Shown: positions 50,934 through 55,601 of the stretch, one piece after another
Numbering within the stretch: position 1 is the first letter of the stretch
Layout: each line of letters starts with the position of its first letter
Assembly (NCBI RefSeq): GCF_005222785.1
Contig: NZ_STGH01000003.1
Location: forward strand, 868,001 to 932,000
Length of the DNA: 64,000 bases
Direction of reading: 5' to 3'
Source of the DNA: Rhodobacter sp. SY28-1
GTDB taxonomy: Bacteria > Pseudomonadota > Alphaproteobacteria > Rhodobacterales > Rhodobacteraceae
Position numbers and translations under genes: made by a program
Notes under the pieces: model-generated
What the model saw: the letters and a program-made list of their open reading frames with translations, nothing else
What the model was told of the DNA's origin: nothing
The model's database searches: none

Positions 50934-51425
50934 ATGCCCTATGAATGGCTTCCCCCCGAAGGCGGCGAGGACCGCCTGCATCTCTGGCCGCACCGGTCGC
51001 TCACGCAAGCCGGGTTCGTCTGGTTCGTCGGCCTGACCGCCGCACTGATCGCCGTGCCGCTGATGGGCATCATCGGCAGCCCGGTCGTCTGGGCGCTCCT
51101 CCCGTTTCTCCTCGGCGCAATCTGGGCCATCTGGTTCGCGCTAAGAAAGAACGGCCGCGACCGCGACATTGTCGAGGACCTGCGGCTCTCCCCTGACCGC
51201 GTCACCCTCGTCCGCCACGGCCCCAAGGGCCGCCGCCAGGACTGGGAGGCGAACCCCTACTGGCTGCGCGTCACCCTGCACGAAACCGGCGGCCCGGTGC
51301 CGAACTACCTGACGCTCAAGGGCGACGGGCGCGAGGTCGAGCTCGGTGCCTTCCTGTCCGAAGACGAACGCATCGCGCTGGAGAAAGATCTCGGACGCCG
51401 CATTGCGGGCCTACGCCGGCCATGA
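50934..51425 (+). CDS. DUF2244 membrane protein
   Basis: The product has 163 aa with two close membrane helices (about 27-70: FVWFVGLTAALIAVPL, WALLPFLLGAIWAIWFAL) and a cytoplasmic C-terminal domain with EDLRLSPDRVTLVRHG and GAFLSEDERIALEKDL. These match DUF2244, a family often found near cytochrome oxidase genes in alphaproteobacteria. GAAAGGAGCC precedes the ATG. Confidence 0.85.
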   Translation: MPYEWLPPEGGEDRLHLWPHRSLTQAGFVWFVGLTAALIAVPLMGIIGSPVVWALLPFLLGAIWAIWFALRKNGRDRDIVEDLRLSPDRVTLVRHGPKGRRQDWEANPYWLRVTLHETGGPVPNYLTLKGDGREVELGAFLSEDERIALEKDLGRRIAGLRRP

Positions 51426-51466
51426 TTGTTGCGGACAAGACCGGGATAGAACCCGGGAGATCCACC

Positions 51467-51859
51467 ATGACCAAAGCTCTTGCCGTCGCTGTCGCCCTGA
51501 CCCTGTCCGCCCTGCCCGCCCAGGCCTTCGAGATCGGCTTCGAATGGGGGGCGCTGAAGTCCTGCACCAACGGCAGTCCGAACACGGTCGACAACCCGCG
51601 CTTCGAACTGACGGACGTGCCGGAAGGGACCAAGTTCATCCGCTTCAAGATGGTCGACCTGAATTACCCCAGCTTCGACCACGGCGGCGGCACCATCGCC
51701 TATACCGGCCAGACCGTGATCGAGCCTGGCAGCTTCAAGTACAAAAGCCCGTGCCCTCCCAGCGGGCAGCACAAGTACCAGTGGACGGCCACGGCGCAGT
51801 CCAAGAAGTCGGGCGGAAAGATCGACGCGGCAAAGGCGGTTCGCAAGTATCCGGAATAG
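51467..51859 (+). CDS. Exported PEBP-like (YbhB/YbcL) protein
   Basis: The product has 130 aa. ATG at 51467 follows GGGAGATCCACC and gives a signal peptide ending AQAFE. FELTDVPEGTKFIRFKMVD and PCPPSGQHKYQWTATA recall the phosphatidylethanolamine-binding-protein fold, where a D-H-P and a PCPP-x-G-x-H loop bind phosphate-like ligands. The protein is shorter than most PEBPs (about 150-180 aa). Periplasmic; ligand unknown. Confidence 0.7.
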   Translation: MTKALAVAVALTLSALPAQAFEIGFEWGALKSCTNGSPNTVDNPRFELTDVPEGTKFIRFKMVDLNYPSFDHGGGTIAYTGQTVIEPGSFKYKSPCPPSGQHKYQWTATAQSKKSGGKIDAAKAVRKYPE

Positions 51860-51965
51860 GCCGGTCCGGCGGGGTCTCCCGCCGCGGCGGGCTTGACCAG
51901 GGTCAAGGCGGCATCCGGCGCGCGGTTGCAGGATGCCTGCATCCTTCCCTTGGGACGATCAGGCC

Positions 51966-52355
51966 ATGCCCGCACTCTCACCCCGCTGGACACGCCCCGC
52001 CGCCATTGCCGCCGGGGCGTTCGGCGCCCTGACCATTCTCAGCGGCAGCCTCGTGCTGTTTGGCCCCGAGGCCGCCCAGCGGGCGGCGGGGGACGCCCTG
52101 CCCTTCGTCGTGATCTTCAACACCGTCGCGGGGGTCGTCTATCTGATCGGTGCCCTTGCCCTTTGGCAAAACCACCCCGCTGCCCGCGGGATTGCGCTGG
52201 CCATCGGGCTTGCAACGCTGGCAGTCTTCGCACTCTTCGCGGGTCTCGCGCTGGCCGGGACCAGGGTCGAGCTGCGAACCGCGCTCGCCCTGCCGTTCCG
52301 GTCCGTCTTCTGGCTCGTCATCGCGTGGGCTGCGGGGCGTCCGGCCCGACCATAG
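51966..52355 (+). CDS. Small four-helix membrane protein, function unknown
   Basis: The product has 129 aa with four hydrophobic segments (AAIAAGAFGALTILSGSLVLF; ALPFVVIFNTVAGVVYLIGAL; IALAIGLATLAVFALFAGLAL; FRSVFWLVIAWAAG). No motif recognised. The 3' end overlaps the end of the tail-sheath gene on the other strand by 38 nt. ATG at 51966 by ORF and hydrophobicity; there is no strong Shine-Dalgarno. Confidence 0.65.
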   Translation: MPALSPRWTRPAAIAAGAFGALTILSGSLVLFGPEAAQRAAGDALPFVVIFNTVAGVVYLIGALALWQNHPAARGIALAIGLATLAVFALFAGLALAGTRVELRTALALPFRSVFWLVIAWAAGRPARP

Positions 52356-53754
52356 TCACAACCACACGCACGAGTGACAACTCTGCCGGTCGCAGGGTCG
52401 CAATCCCGGCCTCGACCACCATCCGTCCCTCCTCGATGTCGGCTTCGGTCATGGTGCGGCCAAGACCGACCGCCACAAAGAAAGCCTGCTCCGGCGTCGT
52501 GCCCTGCAACGCCCCCTCGCGCCAGAGGCCGAGCAGAAAGTCCTGGACCATCCCGCGCACCCTGGTCCAGGTGACGGGTGTGTTTGGCTCGAACACGAAA
52601 GGCTCCAGCCCTTGGGACAGGCAGGCCTTGACCCACATCACCAGCCGAAGCTGGGGGATGTAAGTGGCGGTGGGGTCCTGGCCTGCAAGGGTGCGCGCAC
52701 CCCATTTCCGCACGCCCCGGCCCGGAAGGCTGCGGAGCGGATTGATTGCCATCCCCCCGACCGGATCGCGCAGCAGGTCCTCGTCTGCGGCGCGCACCGG
52801 CAGCGCGGGCTGTGCATTCTCCGCCAAAGCCCGGTTGACCGGGGCTTTCCAGACCCCCTGCTCGCGATCATTCTGCCCCAGCAGGCCCGAGACGACCCCC
52901 GATGGCGGCAGCACTACGCGCGCCGAACGCGCAAGCTCAAGCGCCGCGCTCCGGATCGACAGCGCTCCGGGATCTCCCGCGATCGCCGACACCGCCCGCC
53001 CGACCAGACCATGGGTCTCCCGCACCGTGACCGTCCCATCTGCCGCGACAGTCTCATCCCGGGCCTCCGCGACCCGGATCGCCGACAGATCGACCTCATG
53101 CGCCCGTCCCATCTGCAGGAACGGCGCATAGGCCGCCCCATAGCGCAACTCAGCTGCCGTCACGCCGGACAGGGACGCGCGAAACCCTGTGCAGGTCTCG
53201 GCCCAGCTCACGAACAGCTCTTGCCGCGCGGACGGGACATCCAGGATCAGCATCCGCCGCCCATTCGCCGCACAAGACGCAAATGCCGCTGCCATCACCC
53301 TGCTCCAGCCCGGGACCGCAAGGTGTACGGCATCCGGCACCGCCAGCAGCGTCACGTCGTTCAGGCCTACGGTCGCCTGCACGCCCGCGACAAGCTCCTC
53401 TGCGCTGCCCCCGGTTGTCGGCACGATCCAGGCCGCCCCGCCGCCATTGTCGAAATGCGCAGCAACGGCCGGATGCAGCACGACTGCGGGCACCTGCGGC
53501 GCAGGGCCATGCCAGTCCACCGCGACGGCCAGCACCCGGCCCTGGGCATCCAGCCGCCGCGTGACCCGCACCGCCATCGGCTCGGGCGGCGGCGCGCCGA
53601 CCTTGTCCAGGAAATCGGGATACGAGATCACCCGGATCGGCCCCTTTTCCGCCAATCCCGGAACCGGGCCGACAAAGGCCGTCACGGCAGTCGGCAGCCG
53701 GGCCAATTGCCCAGCAACCTTCTCTTCGACATGCACACCCGGCGTCAGGGCCAT
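52318..53754 (-). CDS. Phage tail sheath-like protein, orphan
   Basis: The product has 478 aa. N-terminus TPGVHVEEKVAGQLARLPTA matches sheath proteins of contractile tails, as do GVWKAPVNRALAEN, GGMAINPLRSLPGRGVRKWG, ARTLAGQDPTATYIPQLRL, FEPNTPVTWTRVRGMVQDFL and RPAELSLVRVVV near the C-terminus. Sheaths contract to drive a tube through membranes in myophages, R-tailocins and related injection systems. No tube, baseplate, spike or ATPase genes are nearby; the neighbours are housekeeping genes. It could be a remnant, part of a scattered injection system, or reused. Length is close to typical. Confidence 0.8.
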   Translation of the reverse strand: MALTPGVHVEEKVAGQLARLPTAVTAFVGPVPGLAEKGPIRVISYPDFLDKVGAPPPEPMAVRVTRRLDAQGRVLAVAVDWHGPAPQVPAVVLHPAVAAHFDNGGGAAWIVPTTGGSAEELVAGVQATVGLNDVTLLAVPDAVHLAVPGWSRVMAAAFASCAANGRRMLILDVPSARQELFVSWAETCTGFRASLSGVTAAELRYGAAYAPFLQMGRAHEVDLSAIRVAEARDETVAADGTVTVRETHGLVGRAVSAIAGDPGALSIRSAALELARSARVVLPPSGVVSGLLGQNDREQGVWKAPVNRALAENAQPALPVRAADEDLLRDPVGGMAINPLRSLPGRGVRKWGARTLAGQDPTATYIPQLRLVMWVKACLSQGLEPFVFEPNTPVTWTRVRGMVQDFLLGLWREGALQGTTPEQAFFVAVGLGRTMTEADIEEGRMVVEAGIATLRPAELSLVRVVVTMVGPDAPQPTR

Positions 53755-53806
53755 GCGCCCGCGTCCTTCTCCCGCTGACGCGGAACCGCCGGTCAGAGGG
53801 CAGGCC

Positions 53807-54265
53807 CTACCCCAGCCGCCCCTTCACCAGCGCGCCCACCGCGCCGAAATCCATCTGGCCGGTGTACCTGGCCTTCAGCGCAGCCATCACCTTGCCCACG
53901 TCGCGGATGCTGGCCGCCCCCGTTTCGGCCACCGCCGCATCGACCGCCGCCGCGATCTCGGCCGCGTCCATCTGGCGCGGCAGGAATTCCTGGATCACGC
54001 CGATTTCGGCCAGTTCCTTCTCGGCCAGTTCCAGTCGCCCGCCCTCTTCATAGGCCCGCGCCGATTCCTGCCTCTGCTTCACCATCTTGCCCATGATCTG
54101 CAGGATCTCGGCCTCGCCTACCTCGACCCCGTCCCCTTCGCCCCTGACCGCAATCTCGCGGTCCTTGATGGCGGCGTTGATCAGGCGCAGCGTGGACAGC
54201 CGGTCGGCCTCCTTGGCCTTCATGGCCTCCTTGAGGGCCGTCTGCAGACGGTCGCGCAAAAGCAT
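53807..54265 (-). CDS. GatB/YqeY domain protein
   Basis: The product has 152 aa. ATG at 54265. MLLRDRLQTALKEAMKAKEADRLSTLRLINAAIKDREI and FLPRQM are the YqeY marks; the family resembles the tail domain of GatB amidotransferase, which contacts tRNA. Function unclear. Divergent from carA, as in many proteobacteria. Confidence 0.92.
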   Translation of the reverse strand: MLLRDRLQTALKEAMKAKEADRLSTLRLINAAIKDREIAVRGEGDGVEVGEAEILQIMGKMVKQRQESARAYEEGGRLELAEKELAEIGVIQEFLPRQMDAAEIAAAVDAAVAETGAASIRDVGKVMAALKARYTGQMDFGAVGALVKGRLG

Positions 54266-54446
54266 GGCAGGTCTTTCCGATAGTTTCCCCAAGTTTCCGA
54301 CAATACCCTGAACCCGTCCGGACCGCAACTGTGGCCCCATTTCCCAACCCATTGATTCTGATACACAATCCTTTTCCCAGCCGGGCTTGACCCTGCCCCT
54401 GGCTTTCCTTAGGTTCCGCGCAATTTGCCCAAAGGGAGAGTCGCCC

Positions 54447-55601
54447 ATGCCTGCGCCGCAGAAGCCTACCGCCTGCCTCGCACTTGCCGACGGCACCCTG
54501 TTCTACGGCCATGGCCTTGGCGCTGTGGGCGAGACGGTGGCAGAGCTTGTCTTCAACACAGCGATGACCGGCTACCAGGAAATCATGACCGACCCCTCCT
54601 ATGCGGGCCAGGTCGTGACCTTCACCTTCCCCCATATCGGCAATACCGGCGTCACGCCCGAGGATGACGAAACCACCACCCCTTCTGCCGCAGGCATGGT
54701 GGTGAAGTGGGACCCGACCGAGCCGTCGAACTGGCGCGCAACTGGTGAGCTGACGGATTGGCTCACGAAGATCGGCCGCATCGGCATCGGCGGGATCGAC
54801 ACGCGGCGGCTGACCCGCGCGATCCGCCAGCAGGGCGCGCCGCATGTCACCCTTGCCCACAACCCCGATGGCAAGTTCGACATCGAGAAACTGGTAGCGA
54901 AAGCCCGCGCCTGGAAGGGACTGGTTGGCCTCGACCTCGCCAAGGATGTCACCTGCGCGCAAAGCTATCGCTGGGATGAAAAGCGGTGGGCCTGGCCCGA
55001 GGGTTACACCCGCCGCGAGGGCCCGGGCTTCAAGGTGGTCGCGATCGACTACGGCGCCAAGCGCAACATCCTGCGCTGCCTGGCCTCCGTTGGCTGCGAA
55101 GTCACCGTCCTGCCCGCCACCGCCACCGCCGAGGATGTCCTGGCCCTGAACCCCGAGGGCGTGTTCCTGTCGAACGGCCCCGGCGACCCGGCCGCGACCG
55201 GCGCCTATGCCGTGCCGATGATCCAGGGCGTTTTGTCCAAGGACCTGCCGCTCTTCGGCATCTGCCTTGGCCACCAGATGCTGGCGCTGGCCCTGGGCGC
55301 GAAGACCCGCAAGATGAACCACGGCCACCACGGTGCGAACCACCCCGTGAAGGACCTGACCACCGGCAAGGTCGAGATCACCTCGATGAACCACGGCTTC
55401 ACCGTCGACGCCGACACCCTGCCGAAGGGCGTCATGGAGACGCATATCTCGCTCTTCGACGGCACCAACTGCGGCATCGCGGTGGACGGCAAGCCGATCT
55501 ACTCGGTCCAGTACCACCCCGAAGCCTCGCCCGGCCCCCAGGACAGCTTCTACCTGTTCGAACGCTTCGCCGCCGCGATGAAATCCCGCCGCGCCGCCTG
55601 A
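54447..55601 (+). CDS. carA: Carbamoyl-phosphate synthase small subunit
   Basis: The product has 384 aa. N-terminal CPSase small-chain domain (ALADGTLFYGHGLG, FNTAMTGYQEIMTDPSYAGQ) and C-terminal class I glutaminase with GICLGHQ (Cys273) and QYHPEASPGP (His/Glu). It supplies ammonia for carbamoyl phosphate in arginine and pyrimidine synthesis. AAAGGGAGAG precedes ATG 54447. carB is not in this window. Confidence 0.96.
   Translation: MPAPQKPTACLALADGTLFYGHGLGAVGETVAELVFNTAMTGYQEIMTDPSYAGQVVTFTFPHIGNTGVTPEDDETTTPSAAGMVVKWDPTEPSNWRATGELTDWLTKIGRIGIGGIDTRRLTRAIRQQGAPHVTLAHNPDGKFDIEKLVAKARAWKGLVGLDLAKDVTCAQSYRWDEKRWAWPEGYTRREGPGFKVVAIDYGAKRNILRCLASVGCEVTVLPATATAEDVLALNPEGVFLSNGPGDPAATGAYAVPMIQGVLSKDLPLFGICLGHQMLALALGAKTRKMNHGHHGANHPVKDLTTGKVEITSMNHGFTVDADTLPKGVMETHISLFDGTNCGIAVDGKPIYSVQYHPEASPGPQDSFYLFERFAAAMKSRRAA

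Follow-up and report, generated by a model that had tools for sequence, protein, structure and literature searches.

The contractile sheath is the motor of injection machines. What, then, is a sheath gene doing by itself among housekeeping genes in Rhodobacter sp. SY28-1? A preliminary description of the 64-kb stretch of DNA that was analysed (hereafter, the window) had offered two answers: that the gene belongs to a scattered contractile injection system (CIS), or that the sheath is reused by the cell. We examined the gene and its locus, searched for the other parts of an injector, and compared the gene with other sheath genes that stand without CIS genes around them (solo sheaths).

A contractile sheath by sequence and predicted fold

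The gene and the features around it are as follows.

52318..53754, minus strand: sheath gene, solo eCIS/tCIS-type contractile sheath protein of 478 aa, by sequence and predicted fold
52318..52355, minus strand: last part of the sheath ORF (roughly residues 468-478 plus the stop), antisense to the membrane-protein gene at its conserved end; native C-terminus absent
53755..53806, minus strand: yqeY-sheath gap of 52 bp, in which a Shine-Dalgarno-like AGAAGGA, recognized by eye, precedes the ATG by 9 nt
53807..54262, minus strand: yqeY, upstream of and co-directional with the sheath gene (Pfam match made on the longer frame 53807-54496)
51933..52355, plus strand: 140-aa membrane protein, convergent with the sheath gene and variable in the genus (DUF7937 match below cut-off)
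51422..51859, plus strand: gene for a PEBP-like protein, also inside the variable DUF2244-yqeY interval, by match and genus comparison
54387..55601, plus strand: carA, a conserved flank, by synteny

The ORF starts with ATG and has zero internal stops. In a phmmer search of the PDB, the top solved relative of the protein was All3325 of Anabaena (7b5h; E 2.3e-59, query residues 4-463), and the AlgoCIS, PVC, AFP and Streptomyces CIS sheaths were further matches. The PHROG tail sheath matched residues 279-470 (E 2.1e-42). The Pfam family Phage_sheath_1C scored 26.7 bits by hmmscan, slightly below the 26.9 cut-off, and 30.6 bits in a six-frame scan, in which it was the one match in the whole genome; NCBIfam gave zero matches to the protein. 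Structure prediction, which the preliminary description had recommended, gave a sheath fold: the AlphaFold2 model, made from a 57-row alignment, had a mean pLDDT of 91.9 and a pTM of 0.89, Foldseek retrieved the AlgoCIS and tCIS sheaths with it (E 5.8e-38), and VIA-align gave Z 36.1 to a Streptomyces CIS sheath and, against those of AlgoCIS and tCIS, Z 33.1-34.2. Judged by descent and by predicted fold, the window gene is a contractile sheath.

The core of the protein is nearer to the sheath consensus than its terminal arms are. The N-terminal motif is retained as TPGVHVEE, with a short deletion, and the position of F464 is occupied by V. Only two of the eight positions of W-R-Y..V-R-R..E-S are left, the next lowest of 60 rows retaining five; in a set of 131 rows, one clustered row retains three and every other at least five.

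The sheath frame ends in host DNA

The position of the gene is as had been described, between a small membrane-protein gene and yqeY/carA. At its 3' end, the sheath frame shares 38 bp with the convergent membrane-protein gene. In six relatives, homologues of the membrane protein align up to residue 136-140 of 140, so that the shared stretch is host sequence, read in antisense for the last ~11 sheath residues; the native sheath C-terminus is thus gone. Hence, of the earlier statement that this is a full-length sheath-like gene, the sheath identity stands and the full length does not, as about 11 antisense codons replace the native end. Consensus scanning of the 52-bp gap between yqeY and the sheath gene found no terminator-like or sigma70-like site, and the sheath is probably translated from the yqeY transcript.

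Across the genus, the interval between DUF2244 and yqeY (window 51426-53806) serves as an accessory slot of variable content, from 0 to 1.3 kb long, with small genes that differ between species. Several of these small genes are co-directional behind yqeY.

Search for the other parts of an injector

The statement that no other tail genes lie within the window was borne out. When the 23 proteins of two eCIS operons were compared with the window by tblastn, only two sheath queries matched, and only at this gene; tube and gp25 profiles together with spike, baseplate and LysM queries yielded no further tail gene in the window. The tube and gp25, the sheath initiator, were sought genome-wide, and the spike and baseplate in the 64-kb window only. 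The Pfam family Phage_T4_gp19 had no match in the genome and was equally silent in the controls, and therefore a tube profile of our own (31 rows) and a gp25 profile (21 rows) were built. Neither matched this genome, although the tube profile matched in 18 and the gp25 profile in 16 of the 27 genomes searched. A genome search for tube, baseplate and spike genes, as proposed earlier, thus came out negative for the tube gene genome-wide and for the spike and baseplate genes in the window.

With no tube or gp25 match in a genome searched with profiles that work in the controls, a scattered injector is unlikely, and we rejected it. As far as tube and gp25 show, the sheath gene appears to be no part of an injector in this genome. 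The broader proposal, that the protein serves as the sheath of a functional CIS whose other genes are scattered or sit on a replicon absent from the assembly, draws on the state of the assembly (4.28 Mb in 11 contigs, 98.9% complete) and on the finding that five of the eight fully flanked isolated sheath genes among the best 80 loci described below lie in genomes with a tube elsewhere. We consider it very unlikely, given the tube and gp25 results, the altered C-terminal arm and the loss of the WRY..VRR stretch.

All3325 (Cis2), the sheath protein of the Anabaena thylakoid-anchored CIS, has the same fold as the window protein (Z 33.8 over 417 aligned residues) and belongs to a 17-protein gene cluster according to PMC8894136. 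Unlike All3325, the window gene has no tube or gp25 match in its genome, has lost the native C-terminal end and has lost most of WRY..VRR. The AlgoCIS sheath Alg2 (7adz and 7ae0) also shares the fold (Z 34.2 and 34.1), with a conserved C-terminal wall domain; in PMC8894135, it is described as forming 23 layers round the tube via handshake arms and an attachment helix, whereas no partner was found for the window protein. Clustered alphaproteobacterial eCIS sheaths (L277 in G206, L278 in G238, L070 in G066, and L021 on plasmid pPspA13b) are 31-38% identical to the window protein and, unlike the window gene, each sit with tube, LysM, spike, gp25 and baseplate genes.

The site is empty in genus relatives

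Conservation of the locus in relatives, a check suggested at the outset, was examined in 16 of the 29 other genomes with a yqeY match, and the sheath was found at the yqeY locus in none of these 16. The membrane-protein gene and yqeY nearly touch in several relatives, with a clean empty site at L055, L063 and L069, so that ~1.45 kb is inserted in this strain. No convincing repeats were found at the ends of the insertion.

When 84,980 species genomes, a set from which near genomes may be missing, were scanned with the protein's own peptides, 56 stretches fit a pattern and no close relative was confirmed. Identity to the window protein peaked at 38-39% across the greater part of the sequence and at 45% when only the C-terminal domain was considered, and no source cluster was found. 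Among the best 80 viral contigs listed, the sheath-bearing ones reached a top identity of 36%; two were placed in the tree.

The preliminary description had linked a strain-only locus with decay signs to a recent prophage remnant. The locus is indeed strain-specific in the genus sample, but frame decay is absent. Contractile phages have sheaths, and partial matches to the query occur in 41 phage records; however, none of the 41 covers 80% of it, the nearest relatives are eCIS/tCIS sheaths, and no other tail gene lies nearby. On these grounds a prophage remnant was rejected as scarcely credible.

A more serious alternative is that the gene is an inert passenger: a fragment of an eCIS cluster, about the size of one gene, that entered by illegitimate recombination and has not yet decayed, maybe translated and without a selected role. 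Such a passenger would fit the absence of the gene at all 16 compared loci, the run of the sheath C-terminus into host antisense DNA, and a slot that takes different genes. The failure to find a source cluster, with identities no higher than those given above, counts against it, as does the state of the gene itself, to which we now turn.

Divergence and constraint of the window copy

The end branch of the window protein measured 2.62 changes per site in a tree of 131 sheaths, from which 10 of 141 sheath rows (fragments and near-copies) had been left out, and 2.66 in a tree of 45 rows. Median end branches were 0.35 for clustered sheaths and 0.91 for the 17 rows labelled solo (Mann-Whitney p 2.4e-5, uncorrected for relatedness). 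In these trees, three sheaths without a detected tube (L106, L109, L147) were labelled clustered because of a short contig or a Pvc16-like neighbour recognized by eye, and four (L077, L086, L090, L111) were labelled solo despite one flank shorter than 10 kb.

In clustered sheaths, 80 residues show a conservation of 90% or more, and the window protein retains 62 of these. In a simulation of neutral point mutation, the frame stayed free of stops in 1 of 60 runs at 0.26 amino-acid changes per site, in 0 of 60 at 0.5, in 0 of 60 at 1.0 and in 0 of 25 at 2.62. The codon log-odds of the gene was 0.153, compared with -0.22 for the same protein written with base-composition codons and 0.18-0.48 for ten reference host genes; its codon use is host-like, although each of the other 12 genes scored higher. 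The evidence on selection for the window copy consists of frame retention, codon use and kept residues, since dN/dS is not measurable where no close orthologue was found. Together they argue for selection over most of the long branch, not necessarily since arrival. The changes on this branch may predate the arrival of the gene, possibly having built up in an injector cluster that the sampling missed, and where so long a branch belongs in the tree is uncertain. The intact frame of 478 codons, the host-like codons and the 62 core residues kept speak against an inert passenger.

A conserved solo sheath in another genus

Orthologous solo sheaths were found in five of the seven genomes of another alphaproteobacterial genus, g98 (G128, G605, G701, G822 and G821). 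Their loci (L071, L302, L303, L315 and L316) lie among housekeeping genes with no adjoining CIS genes, and the locus is kept, with the gene upstream of the same SDR gene. The other four proteins are 49-64% identical to that of G128. No tube match was found in three of the five genomes (G128, G605 and G701); G821 and G822 have an additional sheath with tubes and gp25 elsewhere in the genome.

In the three closest species, dN/dS of the sheath gene (Nei-Gojobori) was 0.17, 0.16 and 0.19, and more distant pairs gave 0.27-0.58. The neighbour genes in the same species had values of 0.15-0.20 (thioesterase), 0.15-0.18 (ABC-type protein), and 0.08-0.09 and 0.05-0.07 (two SDRs). The g98 sheath is thus constrained, but no more than its neighbours. 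Judged by these substitution rates, the g98 orthogroup is under purifying selection outside a CIS, which shows that a solo sheath can be maintained and weighs against a passenger in the window as well.

The g98 proteins resemble the window protein as sheaths without neighbouring CIS genes and in their predicted sheath fold (AlphaFold2 model of L303: pLDDT 89.8, N-terminal helix of low confidence). They differ in length (373-388 aa), in being vertically conserved, in having lost the handshake motif in four of five, and in occupying a separate place in the tree. The TPGVYVEE motif is absent from all of them save that of G128. Four of the five (L302, L303, L315, L071) begin MALKQVVRWMRSMTR, a near-identical basic N-terminal segment that replaces the plain sheath N-terminus and is possibly a membrane-binding helix.

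Solo sheaths and solo tubes in the family and class

In a sample of 394 genomes of the family, a sheath matched in 45 and a tube in 41; in a sample of 385 genomes of the class, the counts were 24 and 10, and all ten tube genomes also had a sheath. The sheath and tube searches were taken as covering the same 394 and the same 385 genomes. Among seven sheath-only genomes of the family, four carried the sheath solo among housekeeping genes (this genome, G178, G204 and G437), two with gp25 near a weak sheath match (G432, G469) were set aside as tail clusters, and G443 showed no sheath on re-inspection of a stretch that ends at a contig end. The class sample held 14 sheath-only genomes. Besides this genome, G128, G605, G701, G602 and G771 were solo; the sheath of G669 adjoins a contig end and was classed neither solo nor clustered, and seven genomes with weak matches (G124, G513, G642, G697, G779, G798 and G806; E 1.4e-5 to 8.3e-4) were left out of this inspection. 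Because solo was counted per genome, as a sheath and no tube match, solo sheaths beside a tube elsewhere go uncounted in both samples.

Tube-only genomes, with single tube genes among housekeeping genes, numbered three in the family sample and 0 of 385 in the class sample. Capture specific to sheaths was not supported, because solo tubes occur too (three tube-only versus four solo-sheath genomes of 394). At so similar a frequency, capture of a single component need not imply a function of the sheath, and chance capture of single genes, as the passenger explanation would have it, becomes a serious rival.

The solo CIS tube genes of the three sheath-less genomes lie at L298:9765-10199 (plus strand), L299:9747-10214 (minus strand) and L297:9456-10190 (plus strand).

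A possible role for the window sheath

The explanation that we place first, with confidence just short of even, is that a solo sheath was captured, remains under constraint and has probably been exapted to dock to itself or to other sheath subunits. A single eCIS/tCIS-type sheath gene would have been captured without its machine into the accessory slot behind yqeY. Its product would retain the wall domains of a sheath subunit, with the C-terminal arm altered and most of W-R-Y..V-R-R..E-S lost; given these changes, the window protein most likely drives no injector. It would probably dock to itself or to other sheath subunits, forming short rings or tubules or capping foreign sheaths. Expression, the mode of docking and selection in this strain are what we infer. 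Frame retention and the g98 case tip the balance toward a role of its own and away from an undecayed fragment, to which we still give a considerable chance, although below even. Against exaptation, the C-terminus runs into host DNA, as would that of an accidental fragment. The idea of a sheath reused by the cell is consistent with these data; the solo sheath under purifying selection belongs to another genus, and the role in this strain is conjectural.

One form of docking can be considered separately. As a dominant-negative or capping protein, the window sheath would co-assemble with contractile phage or injector sheaths in the cytoplasm and poison or terminate them. The AlgoCIS cap adaptor Alg16B ends sheath assembly by handshake mimicry, as described in PMC8894135, and the window protein is closer to consensus in its core than in its terminal arms, a tendency that is weak in solo sheaths generally. 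No target was identified, however; the nearest relatives are injector sheaths, phage sheaths match only part of the query, and arm erosion is weak after lineage matching (see below), so that we regard this role as improbable. On self-assembly, PMC9230969 reports a tendency of recombinant T4 gp18 to polymerise into polysheaths, and simpler prophage sheaths are there said not to do so.

A selected sheath in genomes without a detectable tube would, if true, be a new use of this fold, possibly as a self-made sheath inhibitor or a cytoplasmic scaffold. A sheath gene by itself is poor evidence of an injector. The g98 orthogroup offers a conserved case open to laboratory testing. Full-text searching of open PMC papers, with subscription papers and preprints outside its scope, listed none whose title or opening of the abstract deals with solo, orphan or lone sheath genes.

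Isolated sheaths in other bacteria

Scanning genome contigs with the sheath alignment, we considered the best 80 loci. A tube lay in the flanks at 65 of them, and of the 15 without, eight had full 10-kb flanks in which no CIS gene was found: Hymenobacter norwichensis, Salegentibacter holothuriorum, a Saprospiraceae MAG, two Aequorivita, Methylovorus menthalis, Variovorax sp. EL159 and Algoriphagus chordae. The genomes of five of these eight loci have a tube elsewhere; none was detected for Hymenobacter, Methylovorus and Variovorax, and Hymenobacter (1.7e-10) and Variovorax (3.1e-6) each gave one weak gp25 match. The Hymenobacter and Saprospiraceae loci may be cluster remnants, given an AAA-ATPase-like neighbour recognized by eye.

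Solo sheaths are scattered on the 45-row tree, where at least seven label changes are forced. A single clade of solo sheaths was not supported by the trees, although these leave the position of the long window branch uncertain. By this phylogenetic evidence, solo sheaths of apparently independent origin occur in other Alphaproteobacteria and elsewhere. No neighbour gene family was common to them beyond orthologous loci, an AAA-ATPase at three loci and incidental matches.

Without correction, both arms of solo sheaths are eroded beyond what core divergence would lead one to expect (C-terminal arm p 3.5e-6, N-terminal arm p 0.0013). When 16 lineages were matched to their nearest clustered relatives, the C arm gave p 0.019 by the Wilcoxon test and p 0.105 by the sign test, and the N arm p 0.065 and p 0.227. 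Arm erosion is thus only suggestive, a lead. That solo sheaths had convergently lost WRY..VRR and the C-terminal F looked striking without correction (p 1.8e-4 and 1.4e-8) but was not significant when independent pairs were compared, and we rejected it as a common mark. Recurrent exaptation, in which single sheath genes are repeatedly captured and keep the wall domains while the arms erode, for stand-alone or capping use also in cells without an injector, is a tentative generalization that we think rather more apt to fail than to hold.

Two of the settings deserve description. In Hymenobacter norwichensis, the isolated sheath (L074:11509-13046) is followed by a 298-aa ORF and, by eye, an AAA-ATPase-like ORF, possibly a decayed eCIS cluster. 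In the two Aequorivita (L122:9980-11545 and L142:9980-11539), the isolated sheath has a conserved GNAT gene upstream and genes for 169- and 104-aa proteins downstream, and both genomes have tube genes elsewhere.
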